This document shows, piece after piece, positions 43,491 to 48,928 of a stretch of DNA of 64,000 nt (position 1 is its first letter; each line of letters begins with the position of its first letter). The notes beneath the pieces were generated by a model. The model was given only the letters and a program-made list of their open reading frames with translations. It did no database searches and was not told the DNA's origin. Source of the DNA: Pleodorina starrii (Eukaryota > Chlorophyta > Chlorophyceae > Chlamydomonadales > Volvocaceae); contig BRXU01000003.1 in assembly GCA_030267565.1 (NCBI GenBank), positions 1,844,001 through 1,908,000 on the forward strand, given 5' to 3'. The position numbers and the translations under genes were made by a program.

Positions 43491-46373
43491 CAGTGGGATT
43501 TCGTTCCGGGAACGAGAGTTGGCCTGTCGGGTAGGGTAGGGTCAAGGATTCGGTTGCCGTGTGGCCGAGAGGCCAGTGTGAAGCCACGACACGGCGAACG
43601 AATAACTCGAAATGGTATGGGCCCTGCAATCCATCCGACGCAGGCCCCGCAGCGAGAATGCAGACGCGGAATTGAGCAGTTGAGGCAGACTGATAAGTAG
43701 CGCCAAGGGCGGCAAAGACCCTCTACCGCAGAACAGGAAGGTAAAGGTATGCATACGTCGGCGTTCTGTACTGAAAGAAATTGTCAGCTAATGCAACGAG
43801 AGCTTTCGGCACATCGGCAGTCCTGTACGTTGTACCCACGCCAGCCGCCCGCGAACGCCCTTCTGTTCCTCACCGCTCCGAAAGAGACGCACTGTCCACG
43901 CATGGCCATTCTTTGCGAGGTCGCATTAACAATAACCGTGTCGTCCATGATGGCACAAGGGGAAAAGTTCCGGGAAGTTTGCGTTGAAGCTGGCGGAGTC
44001 AAAGCTCACGCAATTGTCATCCGGGCTGCGTCTGCGTGGATTATGACAATATTTTACCGCATACTACAGTTCTATAGCTAAATAGAAGGTCAAAGGCCAG
44101 ACACAGTTTAGCGGTTACCCTGGTTTGCTAATTGCCAAGCAACCATGCCAGCTTGACGGCCGGAAACTGCCTTGTAAGGACAATGAATTAAGCCGTTCAG
44201 GGCTCATGTGCCTTAATAGAACACAATCTGTGAGCCTGTACGGCAAATCCACGATAGCCACTGGCTTGGGCCGTTGGGCGCTTGCCCAAGAGACAGAGAG
44301 AGATAGACTGGCTTGTCTTTTGTAAAGGCTGTCGACAGCCCGTCCATGTCCTACTGTTGGACAAATGACATGGAAGGGTTCAGAAGTGTTGCAACGCGTG
44401 TCATATTGCTTTCACTAGGTCTACTCGTCTATCGCCCACTCAACGTGAGCCCGGCCCAAGGAACACTTCGCCCAAGCATTTGTAATTTTACCTACAGGGC
44501 TCCAGTCCACTAGATGCATCCAGTCCCTCGAACCCGTGGGTGTCTCCGTCCGGCAGCGGGCCAGACATGCTGGGTGCGGCGGGTGCTGCTGCCGTGGGAG
44601 AGCGACTCACCTACCTTTCCGCGCGTCGGACTCCTGGCCAATAAAGTCTGCGCGCTTGGCTGCCGATCAGGACAGAAGACCGCAACCCGTCATCTACCGT
44701 ACTGGGTTGCTGGATGGCGTTCTCCGCCCCAAAGCTGCCGCGTTGGGCTGCGGCGAGGCGAACAAGTCCCGTCCCCGCCGCGTGCTTTCACTTCACCCAA
44801 TGCAACCCGCCGTTTCCGTAGCGCCGCGTATGTCGTGACTAGCGGGTTCTGCCGCCCCAGAGCTGAGACGTCGACAGACTGAACACTGCCAGCGCCGCGA
44901 GCCTGCGGGTGCGTGTCCCAAACGCAGCTAGCGAGGAAGCCGGCCACCGCCCTACCTACCTATGGATGGGGCCCCTGCTTCACCCCCATAATGGTGCGCA
45001 TGCATGGCGCGGGGACCTTGGCAGCCCATCTCACCAGCGGTCGCATCTCGGATCGGTTGCCGTCTTGGAATTTCCGCGATCAGGAGCCGCCAGGTCTCGA
45101 ACGAAGGAAGCCGCCGTAGGGGAGGTCGTTGCAGGTGGTTGCAGTCGGATGGATTTCGCGCTGAACTTGTTCATACCACAAGCTTGTCACTTTGGTAAAC
45201 GTCAGTCTCCTGCATGCCAGTCATTTGCATTCTAGCTGTGCTGAAATCCACCAGCAGTACTCGTAGTGCGTCGATCGCTGCTCCTGCTGGCCTGCCGGTG
45301 GCAAGCCCTGGCAAGCAAAGCTCATTCCCGTCTCCTACTGCGAGCTGCTTTTGTTTATAACAGCGAACGACGTGAGTCAGGTTTGCTGCCAAGAATGCTT
45401 ATTACGGGCAGGCCGACAGACGTCGGTGCCGCTTCCGTGCTTCTCCTTGTTGGCATGCATTAGGCGCATTAAGGGCGATCAGGATTCGCCCTAGCTTGGT
45501 TTCTATTTCTTCATTTCGCAGTTGGCGACCTATTTATTCGTCAACGCTGTCAGGCGCTGTCCCACAGGCACCCGCTGCAGTTTGCTTAACCCGCGTTCAA
45601 GCGCCGGCGGCGCGCCCCAGCAGCGACACCTACCGGTGCCTCTATCCTCAATCCTCCTTCCTTGATACCTCATGACATAGAGCTAATCTGCCAAGCACTC
45701 TCAGCAGGTGAGCCCGACTGGACGCATTTATTTGCTGGACGTCTTTCGAGACGCTGTAATTTTGATAACCGCCGACGCGGCCGCCGACGCGATTACCAAA
45801 ATTACAGTTAACCGCGTCGGCGCGCGGCCGTGTGCGCGCGCTTACTTGCAATGCCCGCAGCAGTACGTAGGACGTCGTCACAGCGATGTCACGACACACG
45901 ACGTAAACAGCTCGTTGGGTGAGCCTCGCGCTGACTCCCCCCCCAGCTGAAACGCCAGAGAAAGCTGCTCGGCTCGTACCAACACGCAAAAACACAACAC
46001 GCAGCACCGGCGGTGTCTACACGCACGGGGTTCAGATAGCACATCGCGGAGAAAGCAGCGCTTCACGGGAAGTCGCTCAACGCAACGCGGCCACGCGACG
46101 GATCCGCTGGAAAAATGCAGTGCTTGGCGGCCTAAATGACAGGTCCGCAACTACATGCTGCTGGGTTCAGCGTTCGTGAAACAAACCATGCTACGGGCAA
46201 AGGCCCTCAGCTGACGCAGTCCTGACGGTCTGCAGGCGGTTCGCCATGACGGGTTGAGACCCTCGAAAAAGACAAATGTCGCTGCAACGGATGGAACGCA
46301 GGTTGCCCCCCCTGCTCGAAGATCCTACCCTTCGCCTAAACCAACTGACTGGCTCGTAACCTCCCCGACATCA
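43491..46373. other. Gene-poor stretch, AT-richer
   Basis: No gene I can support. It contains the hairpin at 45754-45807 and, near 45880-45905, a CGTCACAGCGATGTCACGAC sequence that is similar in reverse to 48779-48800. Confidence 0.45.
45754..45807. repeat. 54-bp imperfect palindrome (MITE-like hairpin)
   Basis: Begins CTGTAATTTTGATAACCGCC and ends with the near reverse complement (..GATTACCAAAATTACAG); arms of 27 bases with six or seven mismatches. Another CCGCGTCGG run follows. The AT-rich outer arms suggest a very short inverted-repeat transposon remnant. Confidence 0.55.
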
Positions 46374-48284
46374 CTACACCATCACCCACGGGCCATTCGC
46401 CTGGCCCTTGGCCCGCAGCAGCTGATCCCGAAGCCCCCGACTCGCGAAAACCACCAACCACACACACCTGCGGCCCCAGACCCCTTTCGGCAAGCCTAGA
46501 ATCAGCGCCAACCGGCCCGCCTCCGTCAGGCTCCGCAGATAGCGACGGCGCGCCTCATGCGCGTCGGTGACGTAGTGCGCCGCCACATGCATGGCGACTA
46601 TGGGCGCGAACCTGGCAGCCAGCGGTAAGGCCAGATCAACCGCTGCCGCCCACGGCGAGGACACCACCGCGTCGTAATGCCAGACATCTTGAACTCGCCG
46701 GTAGAATTCCGGCTGCAGAGGGTCCTCGTGGCGGTCGGCGACGTGACCGTCGAACGGATCGTTGCTCAACACCCGGTACCCCCGCTGCTGCAACGCCCAA
46801 ACCACCGTCCCCTTGCCCGCCCACGGATCCAGCACCCCCGCACACAGCCCGAAATCCACCGCTCGCACCAACGCCTCCACCTCATTGCCGTGCGCCAGGC
46901 GCGGCTCCGGGGTGAGCTCACCCGCCCGGGTGCTGCGCCGCAAGTGCGCCAAGCCTCGAGGTAGGAAGTTGACAAACTTGGCCACTTGGCCGTCGGGGTA
47001 CGCTGCTGCCGGAACGAGCTGATCAAAAGCCGCTCGAGCTCCGGTCAGGCTGCCAAAGTCCCAAACGTCCGGTAGTACGCTGGTGCTGCCTGCAAGGCTG
47101 GTGCGCCGCCGTCGTGACGATGGTGACCCAGCACTCGACTCCGGAACGAGGTGCTTGCGAAGTGTCGCCATGGTCATGCGCTCCACAGCGCCGTTGTCGT
47201 ACGTGACCTCGTACTGCTGAGCACCGCTCCCTGGACCCAGGTAGCGGGCGACACCCTCGCAAACGGCCGCAGAGAGAGTGACGGGATCCTTGACCCGTCG
47301 ACGCACGGCCCGCCCGTCCAGGGCTGCCGCCGCGGCTTGGCGGCGGCGCTGCTGCGCGTTGGGGAAGATGTTGGGCTGGGCCTCCGGCGCCGCTGGCACC
47401 GGCTTTGCGTCAATCTGCTCCACAGTGATTCCTGCCGCCGCACAGTCGGGGCAGACCCAAGTGCCACTGGGCACCTGGGTGAGCTGCGGCCGCAAGCAGT
47501 GCATGTGCCAGCCCATGCCACAGCCGTCACACAGCAGCATGACCTCCTCCTGATCCGGGAACCCACACACCTCACACGCCAGATCCGCCGGCGGCACCGC
47601 CAGGCGCGGGTCCACGATGGGGTCGAGGTCCGGCAGGTGGCACGGCCTGAGCTGGCTGACATGCTCCTTGCGCTCCGTGCCGCAGCGACCGCGCAGCGTG
47701 ACGACACCGGCGGGGCTGACCTGGACGACGCGCAGGACACTGTCCCGCGTCGGCGGCTGCAGGGTACTGCTGCGATTGCGAGCCAGCACATACACGTAGT
47801 CGCCCGGCTCAAAGCGCTCGATGCGAGGCTGATAACCCCCAGCCCTGACCCGCGCGTACCGCTGCGTGTCCCGGTGCTGAGCGATGAGCAAGTTGCCAGC
47901 GGCCTCCGGCATCAGCCGCTGGAAGAGCTCTGCCCGACGCGTCAGGTGGTCATAGAATTGCGTCTCGTTGGCAGGGTCCAGAGGCTCCGTCACACGCTCG
48001 CGGATAGCAGGCGGGATGACCGGCTGCGCGCCGTACAGCAGCAGGTACGGCGAGTGCCCCGTTGAGGCCTGTGGGGAGCAGTTGTAGCCCAGTTGCAGCC
48101 ACGGCAGGTAGTCGTCCCAATCCGCCGCGCTCCGCTGCTCCGCACAGGCCTCAACGGGGCACTCGCCGTACCTGGCGATGAGTTGACGGCGCCCAGAACT
48201 GGGGACACGCGCTGAACGGCGCGCGTCCCGGATGGCGCACTCCCTAGCTGATCGCGCTCGCGGACTGCGAGCGCCCAGGGGCAA
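46374..48284 (-). CDS. Ty3/Gypsy-like polyprotein fragment: integrase C-half, PHD finger, methyltransferase-like domain
   Basis: Open frame of 636 codons. Residues about 54-215 match the C-terminal half of retrotransposon integrases (DWDDYLPWLQLGYNCSPQAS, TGHSPYLLLYGAQP, then RFEPGDYVYVLARN and the small beta-barrel). Residues 238-281 form a C4HC3 PHD finger (CEVCG, LLCDGCGMGWHMHC, WVCPDC). About 342-382 is a Tudor/chromo-like barrel (ARYLGPGSGAQQYEVTYDNG). Residues about 466-616 resemble a Rossmann methyltransferase, with motif I LDPWAGKGT (485-493), acidic SNDP (507-510) and a motif IV candidate VVSSPW (540-545). Reverse transcriptase, RNase H, integrase core and gag are missing upstream; integrase similarity starts abruptly next to a 32-bp inverted repeat at 48042-48174. 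The 5' part is therefore lost. Whether the methyltransferase acts on DNA is inference. Confidence 0.75.
   Translation of the reverse strand: MPLGARSPRARSARECAIRDARRSARVPSSGRRQLIARYGECPVEACAEQRSAADWDDYLPWLQLGYNCSPQASTGHSPYLLLYGAQPVIPPAIRERVTEPLDPANETQFYDHLTRRAELFQRLMPEAAGNLLIAQHRDTQRYARVRAGGYQPRIERFEPGDYVYVLARNRSSTLQPPTRDSVLRVVQVSPAGVVTLRGRCGTERKEHVSQLRPCHLPDLDPIVDPRLAVPPADLACEVCGFPDQEEVMLLCDGCGMGWHMHCLRPQLTQVPSGTWVCPDCAAAGITVEQIDAKPVPAAPEAQPNIFPNAQQRRRQAAAAALDGRAVRRRVKDPVTLSAAVCEGVARYLGPGSGAQQYEVTYDNGAVERMTMATLRKHLVPESSAGSPSSRRRRTSLAGSTSVLPDVWDFGSLTGARAAFDQLVPAAAYPDGQVAKFVNFLPRGLAHLRRSTRAGELTPEPRLAHGNEVEALVRAVDFGLCAGVLDPWAGKGTVVWALQQRGYRVLSNDPFDGHVADRHEDPLQPEFYRRVQDVWHYDAVVSSPWAAAVDLALPLAARFAPIVAMHVAAHYVTDAHEARRRYLRSLTEAGRLALILGLPKGVWGRRCVWLVVFASRGLRDQLLRAKGQANGPWVMV
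48042..48174. repeat. 32-bp perfect inverted repeat at integrase truncation point
   Basis: 48042-48073 (CAGGTACGGCGAGTGCCCCG..) and 48143-48174 are exact reverse complements with a 69-bp spacer. One arm encodes integrase residues 71-81 in sense; the other lies where integrase similarity ends, which suggests a fold-back or template-switch event. Confidence 0.85.
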
Positions 48285-48928
48285 TAGGGGCGACTGTGGC
48301 TGAAGGCGAGAGAAAGCTATTGAGGTTACAAGGATGAATGTTGTTGCGGTGGTCTAGGTGGACACGAAGCGCAGGCTATTCCTTTGCTCGTTCTCACGGT
48401 CCACAACCAGTTGACGACTGGCCAGCGACTGCTGTTGTTTAGACTATTTTCACCGCTGCTCGCACAAGCGGGAGCAGCGGCTCAAAGCCGGGACTGCGGG
48501 GCCCGAGCAAGGGACCCACCCTGGAGCCTACGTATCCATATCCGCATACGAAGTCCTCCGACAAGCAGGCGCTGTTGCCCGATACCGCACGGCAAAAAGC
48601 ACGTAATACAACATAATGACTATAACAACTCTAATCAATACGGGCTGAAAGCGCCCTGGGTCGGTCGCGCGATCACGTTCCGGCGTGCTAACCGCCCAAC
48701 TAACCGTAACTGACAAAATTGCCCGAAAGTGGCAAGAACAGCAAAACTAGCGAGATAGACGCGCTGTGTCAATAACGCAGTGTGTCGTGACAGCGACGTC
48801 ACAGATTTGCTCGCTCCCATCTCGCTCGCGGGCTCCATCCAACTGCTCTCCCGTTCGCGCCAACCCTTTTTGCCGCGCGCAGAACGCGCCGGACGGAAGC
48901 AACACGCACGCACGCAACACCGGCCAAA
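48285..48928. other. Flank between retroelement fragment and secreted protein gene
   Basis: No gene and no recognisable LTR. The segment just before 48929 presumably holds the promoter of the next gene. Confidence 0.45.

Follow-up and report, generated by a model that had tools for sequence, protein, structure and literature searches.

In the 64,000-nucleotide stretch of Pleodorina starrii DNA analysed here (the window; C3:1844001-1908000), a stop-to-stop open reading frame (ORF) of 659 codons runs on the minus strand at 46374-48353. This frame is a real coding frame, the broken 3' end of Pol of a Ty3/gypsy retrotransposon, and the copy that holds it is dead, an internally deleted element at 45887-48792 (minus strand) delimited by its terminal inverted repeats, their flanks and the limits of homology. 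We consider it probable that the dead copy represents an element whose integrase carries a tail for chromatin targeting and DNA handling, and that this tail is non-catalytic in the family of the window copy. The termini at 45887 and 48792 are inverted ends, TGTCACGACACAC and GTGTGTCGTGACA, with a 4-bp target-site duplication, GCGA, on either side (left, 45883-45886; right, 48793-48796). Between them lie a 620-bp long terminal repeat (LTR; 48173-48792, minus strand), 95-97% identical to the LTRs of other copies; the Pol-derived part of the frame, which is the Pol 3' end (46377-48147, minus strand); a TAG stop codon common to all eight copies examined (46374-46376, minus strand); and a 3' non-coding part (45887-46373, minus strand) within stretches collinear with other copies at 95-98%. 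By DNA comparison, the match to other copies reaches down to 45874, and 48173-48794 matches their LTRs. Residues ~1-69 (48148-48353) are not protein-derived: an inverted near-copy of window 48044-48080 (36/37 bases) sits at the LTR junction (48136-48172, plus strand), and 25 of its bases (48148-48172) are not collinear with other copies. Thus, the ORF passes from the LTR, which supplies its chance start, through an inverted scrap of integrase into mid-integrase.

The frame is continuous and carries the motifs that a sequence-only reading of this DNA had reported, CEVCG at residue 260, LDPWAGKGT at 508, SNDP at 530 and VVSSPW at 563. Alignment to relatives with PF00665 and PF17921 places the end of the integrase core and the integrase C-terminal part at residues ~70-255 (47589-48147, minus strand). 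The integrase C-terminal half of the earlier reading stands in these parts and goes no further: the DDE residues, located by eye in the alignment to relatives, lie upstream of the start of homology and are absent from this copy, and a Pfam scan of the copy gave no integrase match. The deletion took the integrase core, catalytic residues included, and all upstream Pol, so the window copy cannot integrate, and the proposal of an element that targets and modifies chromatin finds no support in this copy. The single domain above the Pfam cut-off in the frame is a PHD finger of the C4HC3 type (residues 260-304; 47442-47576, minus strand), followed by a linker with a possible Tudor-like barrel (residues 311-427; 47073-47423, minus strand). 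A C-terminal domain, methyltransferase-fold-like in its family profile, completes the frame (residues 428-659; 46377-47072, minus strand). Its Dam-type S-adenosylmethionine (SAM) motifs are motif I LDPWAGKGT (residues 508-516; 46806-46832), the acidic motif II SNDP (530-533; 46755-46766) and motif IV VVSSPW (563-568; 46650-46667), all on the minus strand; the residue after motif IV is A, where 21 of 24 family rows have F.

Do the PHD finger and C-terminal domain belong to the element, or to a host gene invaded by a retrotransposon fragment? We searched the whole genome of this alga (136 Mb, 95 contigs) and found at least 68 protein matches, 18 of them at 91% identity or more, window included. 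The segment 46374-48147 is matched over its full length at 11 other genomic places with 95-99% DNA identity, and copies matching residues 39-659 have open frames of up to 3,293 codons. Outside this genome, a first search found 17 proteins homologous to residues ~70-659 (best E 3e-191), some with Volvox or Tetrabaena as source name, others of metagenomic or unnamed origin; ten of them hold the integrase core PF00665 and a PHD finger in one protein. When the C-terminal part of P0003 served as query, a second search returned 19 proteins, 18 beyond itself and 17 new, including one labelled Chrzof1, which we take to be Chromochloris. In each search, scoring was confined to the 8000 candidates with the most shared words; the Pfam scan covered 10 of the 34 homologous proteins, and alignment A3 holds 31 of 35 sequences (P0008, P0014, P0015 and P0016 omitted). 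A host gene would be suggested by the fragmentary state of the window copy and by a similar piece, P0004, that its source names PHD and RING finger protein. It is refuted by the recurrence of this 3' end at the 11 other places and by repeated copies with an upstream reverse transcriptase (RT); moreover, metagenomic and algal relatives hold integrase, PHD and C-terminal domain in one protein, and the host genome has no match to PF02086 (D12 class N6 adenine methyltransferase), a family that the element's own domain does not match either. Because many copies repeat the arrangement, we reject a host-gene fusion, whose probability we regard as negligible. The PHD finger and the C-terminal domain are part of the element, as the earlier reading had it, and the frame in relatives does not stop after the integrase.

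To reconstruct the full element, we used two relatives, read in overlapping stretches that were each translated separately. The copy on C9 (L009; 95% protein identity) has a frame of 3,151 codons with Pfam matches to RT (2.4e-20), RNase H (3.5e-27), the H2C2 integrase zinc domain (3.1e-16), the integrase core (3.3e-9) and PHD (5.5e-10); its upstream part, L017, adds an aspartyl protease match below cut-off (E 7.6e-4). L015, of a family with 42% identity, repeats the domain order of L009 starting at RT; its RNase H, zinc domain and PHD pass the cut-off, and its integrase core falls slightly short of it (29.6 bits vs 32.6). Its upstream part, L020, gave no Pfam match, so no protease. The Pol order in relatives is (weak) protease, RT, RNase H, a degenerate C5-methyltransferase-like segment, integrase, PHD, possible Tudor and the C-terminal domain. 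In L017:3-4472 (minus strand), protease and RT are separated by ~1,100 residues, partly low-complexity or proline-rich, that have no Pfam match at E 0.05.

Direct LTR pairs were found in the copies on C31 (630 bp, 99.68% identical) and C10 (626 bp, 99.04%). The pair on C4 is inverted, the window copy has one LTR, and no pair was seen in the stretches examined for C26, C9 and C6. Four copies carry 4-bp duplications, GCGA in the window, TCTG on C31, GGCA on C4 and AACG on C9, the last three read by eye; the ends of the copies on C10, C26, C36 and C6 could not be paired within the stretches examined. The order RT, RNase H, integrase, the direct LTRs and the 4-bp duplication (the protease being weak) identify a Ty3/gypsy element, and same-genome relatives with in-frame upstream RT, RNase H, integrase and one weak protease match bear out the Ty3-type polyprotein proposed by the sequence-only reading.

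Early homologues with integrase and PHD but without RT had raised the possibility of a Ginger-like cut-and-paste DNA transposon. Ginger1 has a gypsy-type integrase, C-terminal extras that include a PHD in one listed element, inverted termini and 4-bp CCGG/CCGT duplications, as described in PMC2836005, and inverted termini with 4-bp duplications are also seen here. Unlike the present element, Ginger1 has no RT, and the C-terminal enzymes described for it are OTU or Ulp1 proteases (PMC2836005). We rejected this reading because in two families the frame also encodes RT and RNase H, which refutes it; with direct LTR pairs 99% identical besides, a DNA transposon is very improbable. At E 0.05, no tyrosine recombinase domain was found in the four Pol stretches scanned, and a DDE-type integrase is present. 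DIRS elements use a tyrosine recombinase and are not known to make a target duplication, in contrast to the DDE-type integrase and 4-bp duplications of the element here.

What lies between RNase H and the integrase? About 600 residues separate the two in both L009 and L015, and blastp matched these two segments to the N-terminal parts of P0028 (1e-17, 1e-26), P0012 (3e-11, 1e-30) and P0009 (3e-7, 6e-17). The metagenomic protein P0009 matches PF00145 (C5 cytosine methylase; 5.1e-10) upstream of its integrase and PHD; the same family stays below cut-off in P0012 (0.0019) and P0028 (0.072). Four C5-like segments of this genome gave no PF00145 match, and the Pro-Cys-Gln of P0009 was not found at the matching place in those inspected by eye: PF00145 with a Pro-Cys motif is present in P0009 and not in these segments. 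A whole-genome PF00145 search returned one place, below cut-off (E 0.0093); since this search works exon by exon, the result is no proof that the host lacks such an enzyme. The C5-like segment is deleted in the window copy and was therefore invisible to the sequence-only reading. Around one long-ORF element at ~2.03-2.10 Mb of the contig numbered C5, we also noted 18 short C5-like matches, 13 of which have internal stops.

The complete C4HC3 PHD finger claimed from the sequence is borne out by PF00628 (E 2.4e-10; 40.7 bits vs a Pfam cut-off of 24; residues 260-304) and by the full set of eight ligands, C260, C263, C275, C278, H283, C286, C301 and C304. Judged by profile and ligands, we hold this assignment to be certain. 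PHD chains of the PDB were matched, best BAZ2B at 1.7e-13, with Lid, CHD4, ATXR5, KDM5A and WSTF among the closest. Several of these proteins bind or prefer histone H3 with unmethylated lysine 4. For the Tudor/chromo barrel of the earlier reading, PF21743 appears below cut-off in relatives (E 8e-4 in P0009, 0.076 in P0028, 0.006 in L015, 0.072 in P0037), and the window sequence itself lends it no support.

The C-terminal domain was studied as a family, with 21 of 24 rows in domain alignment A2 (P0018, P0020 and P0034 omitted). Across the 24 rows, motif I, [DE]P[WF]xGxG, occurs in 17, ND in 18, S-P-x-F in 21 and, further on, P-G-H in 20; the window row reads LDPWAGKGT, SNDP, SSPWAA and HVAAHY. 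PF02086 was matched by 10 of 21 members (best 4.9e-5, matches listed to E 1), the phage DNA methyltransferase family phrog_799 by 10 of 21 (best 2.6e-7) and phrog_11619 likewise by 10 of 21; an NCBIfam scan of members gave weak scattered matches, several to methyltransferases. In hhalign, comparison of the domain with T4 Dam alone was weak (P 0.033, with 0.43 and 0.40 for two unrelated T4 proteins), and we therefore built an eight-sequence phage Dam alignment from 7 of 20 listed rows plus T4. Against this alignment the domain alignment scored 44.4 over 40 columns with a probability of 82.6, the motifs I of the two alignments facing each other and likewise their NDs; the highest score among 60 column-shuffled versions was 18.4, and reversing the alignment gave 15.2. 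These motifs, which form the SAM-binding half, indicate that the domain is very probably a SAM-binding methyltransferase fold. The Rossmann/methyltransferase domain of the sequence-only reading is upheld in so far as the family profile matches Dam-type SAM motifs; from the window sequence alone it is undetectable.

HemK-type protein and RNA guanine-N2 enzymes likewise have Asn/Asp/Ser-Pro-Pro-aromatic motifs, and such a fold could act on protein or RNA (for example a histone or a ribonucleoprotein) rather than DNA. Single members do give weak matches to HemK-type and RNA guanine-N2-type families, and the domain shares its protein with a histone reader; the recurrent matches, in contrast, are to DNA methyltransferases (PF02086, phrog_799 and phrog_11619), which leaves a protein or RNA substrate distinctly improbable. 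As to where the domain came from, a viral origin was dropped when two scans of viral contigs showed no relative. A profile search for a stand-alone source, covering proteins of ~130-410 residues, returned 16 proteins, four with Pfam names (three with PHD, and P0049, an odd chimera) and 12 without, one of these a Volvox africanus hypothetical protein.

Selection acts on both methyltransferase-like parts. Eight copies (28 pairs), the loci returned by the search from 15 rows reaching residue 659, gave the following ratios of nonsynonymous to synonymous substitution (dN/dS): C-terminal domain, 0.133; integrase C-part, 0.143; PHD, 0.092; linker, 0.265. In six copies the values were RT, 0.038; RNase H, 0.054; the stretch preceding the C5-like segment, 0.088; the C5-like segment itself, 0.200; integrase, 0.104; PHD, 0.242; linker, 0.343; and C-terminal domain, 0.139. 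The C-terminal domain is thus under purifying selection (dN/dS ~0.13), and both methyltransferase-like parts are retained as protein despite the loss of catalytic motifs. Distances in the integrase part and the C-terminal domain correlate among 21 proteins (r 0.638, reached by 0 of 2000 permutations; of 24 rows, these 21 had adequate coverage of the two parts), so the domain has long travelled with the integrase. Separately, synonymous divergence in the C-terminal domain (46377-47072) is 0.12 vs 0.03-0.08 in seven other Pol parts (~1.6-4x); in the eight-copy set it is about twice that of its neighbours or more, as if the domain had been exchanged between element lineages.

Is the domain still an enzyme? 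Known amino-methyltransferases have Pro at the third position of motif IV. Here the motif takes a non-canonical form: S-P-[W/F]-F stands in 18 of 24 rows, Trp occupies the third position in 18 of 24, and the canonical [DNS]PP[YFW] occurs only in P0032, as S-P-P-F. S-P-x-F is kept in 21 of 23 rows from outside this genome; all eight window-family copies examined read S-P-W-A (SSPWAA). Other families of this genome, each judged from one copy, show decay as well: motif I survives in the 42% family (L015), whose motif IV reads CPEM; neither motif is left in the 39% family (L033); the 41% family (L035) retains only the tail of the domain, and the L034 family has no C-terminal domain after the Tudor-like part. 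With S-P-W-A in place of S-P-[W/F]-F, activity in the window family is doubtful. Of the amino-methyltransferase that the sequence-only reading drew from SSPW, the Dam-type family profile remains; in register the motif is S-P-W-A.

An alternative is that the domain, window family included, is an active N6-adenine or N4-cytosine DNA methyltransferase that would methylate the complementary DNA (cDNA) or the insertion site, so that a fresh insertion is taken for host DNA or gains a chosen chromatin state. Conservation of motif I and of S-P-x-F (17 and 21 of 24 rows), the Dam-type profile match and strong purifying selection speak for it, and there is precedent in the Dam-like enzymes of DIRS elements and in active Dnmt3 of retrotransposons (PMC5890265). 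On the other side stand the canonical motif in a single row, the loss of the motif IV aromatic in all eight window-family copies, and the state of the other families here, one with CPEM, two degenerate and one without the domain. An active amino-methyltransferase is plausible in relatives; an active enzyme that includes the window family is, on these motifs, unlikely.

Several results weigh against our own explanation, a kept methyltransferase fold that no longer catalyses. Purifying selection fits an active enzyme equally well, and the dN/dS pairs are not independent, with the value of the short PHD moving from 0.092 to 0.242 between copy sets. The window domain alone found no enzyme-family match in scans of Pfam, PF02086, phrog_799 and NCBIfam. 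The Dam profile match spans ~40 columns with motifs I and II and leaves the catalytic motif outside. A search of PDB sequences with the domain profile (hmmsearch) gave no methyltransferase below E 0.65, its best match being a ribosomal protein at 0.0038.

How might such a tail serve integration? Long-frame relatives in this genome encode one giant protein that runs from the weak protease through the Dam-like SAM-binding half. The PHD finger would dock the integration complex on a nucleosomal H3 tail, probably one with unmethylated lysine 4, which could keep insertions clear of active promoters. The C-terminal domain might then hold either the freshly made cDNA or the DNA targeted for insertion. 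Relatives whose motif IV is intact may use it to methylate the cDNA or the site of insertion; in the window family it is most likely a kept, non-catalytic methyltransferase fold. That two methyltransferase-like parts are selected and yet lose their catalytic motifs suggests a structural job in integration.

We also entertain, more tentatively, a wider possibility: a long-lived chlorophyte Ty3/gypsy lineage carries a C5-type fold before the integrase, an amino-type fold after it and an H3-reading PHD finger, the two folds being enzymes that write the element's own DNA marks during integration in some hosts and serving as selected, non-catalytic DNA-handling modules in others. If so, methyltransferases have repeatedly been turned into integrase parts.

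Chromatin-reading retroelements and DNA-methylation-writing retroelements are already known separately. Chromoviruses, which are gypsy elements with a chromodomain (e.g. PMC3350952), likewise place a chromatin-reading domain behind the integrase; here a PHD finger, perhaps with a Tudor barrel, replaces the chromodomain, and a methyltransferase-like domain is added. Morozov et al. (PMC6338049) mention, in general terms, green-algal gypsy and DIRS elements that encode DAM and DCM, and PMC5890265 cites Dam-like enzymes in DIRS elements; these resemble our case as retroelements with an adenine-methyltransferase-type domain. A close comparison, made by description only, is KnitGypsy-Dnmt3 of Klebsormidium nitens (De Mendoza et al., PMC5890265), a gypsy element with Dnmt3, a captured C5 methyltransferase, inside its Pol frame, a DIRS-like repeat arrangement and purifying selection (Ka/Ks <0.2). 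Its methyltransferase is described as keeping key residues, whereas the C5-like segment here has decayed, and its description in PMC5890265, as far as available to us, mentions neither a PHD finger nor a second, amino-type domain. Phalaenopsis gypsy elements with an AlkB N6-methyladenosine RNA demethylase (PMC9289625) have also captured a nucleic-acid methylation enzyme, although that enzyme removes RNA methylation and sits in an additional ORF. In the open-licence literature, as accessible to us, we found no description of a green-algal gypsy element with PHD and methyltransferase domains. The present lineage groups three parts about a single integrase, a PHD reader, a domain of Dam-like type and another of C5-like type, so that the question of whether an element can choose its site and then mark it becomes testable in algae.

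The ends of the element are complex and, by description, recall the DIRS-like repeats of KnitGypsy-Dnmt3 (PMC5890265). The reading of a 623-bp repeat as a full LTR whose ends are ordinary proved right in part only, the repeat organisation being more complex. Beside the repeats we saw no obvious tRNA primer site or polypurine tract by eye, no systematic search having been made. A 483-bp repeat with the element's own 13-bp ends adjoins copies and also occurs in tandem (L030:1960-2442, L023:640-1122, L026:81-563), the tandem units being joined by a palindromic GC joint like a two-LTR circle junction. Genome-wide, exact matches to the 13-bp end number 239+335, vs 3+2 for the reversed pattern. Rearrangements were seen as inverted LTRs on C4 (L028:1504-4100), where the 4-base overlap at the break is what integration of the element into its own DNA would leave, and as an inverted internal segment on C26 (L018/L025). 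Finally, the copy on C10 is bordered on both sides by a 139-bp tandem satellite (L021:1-1452, L022:6580-7955).

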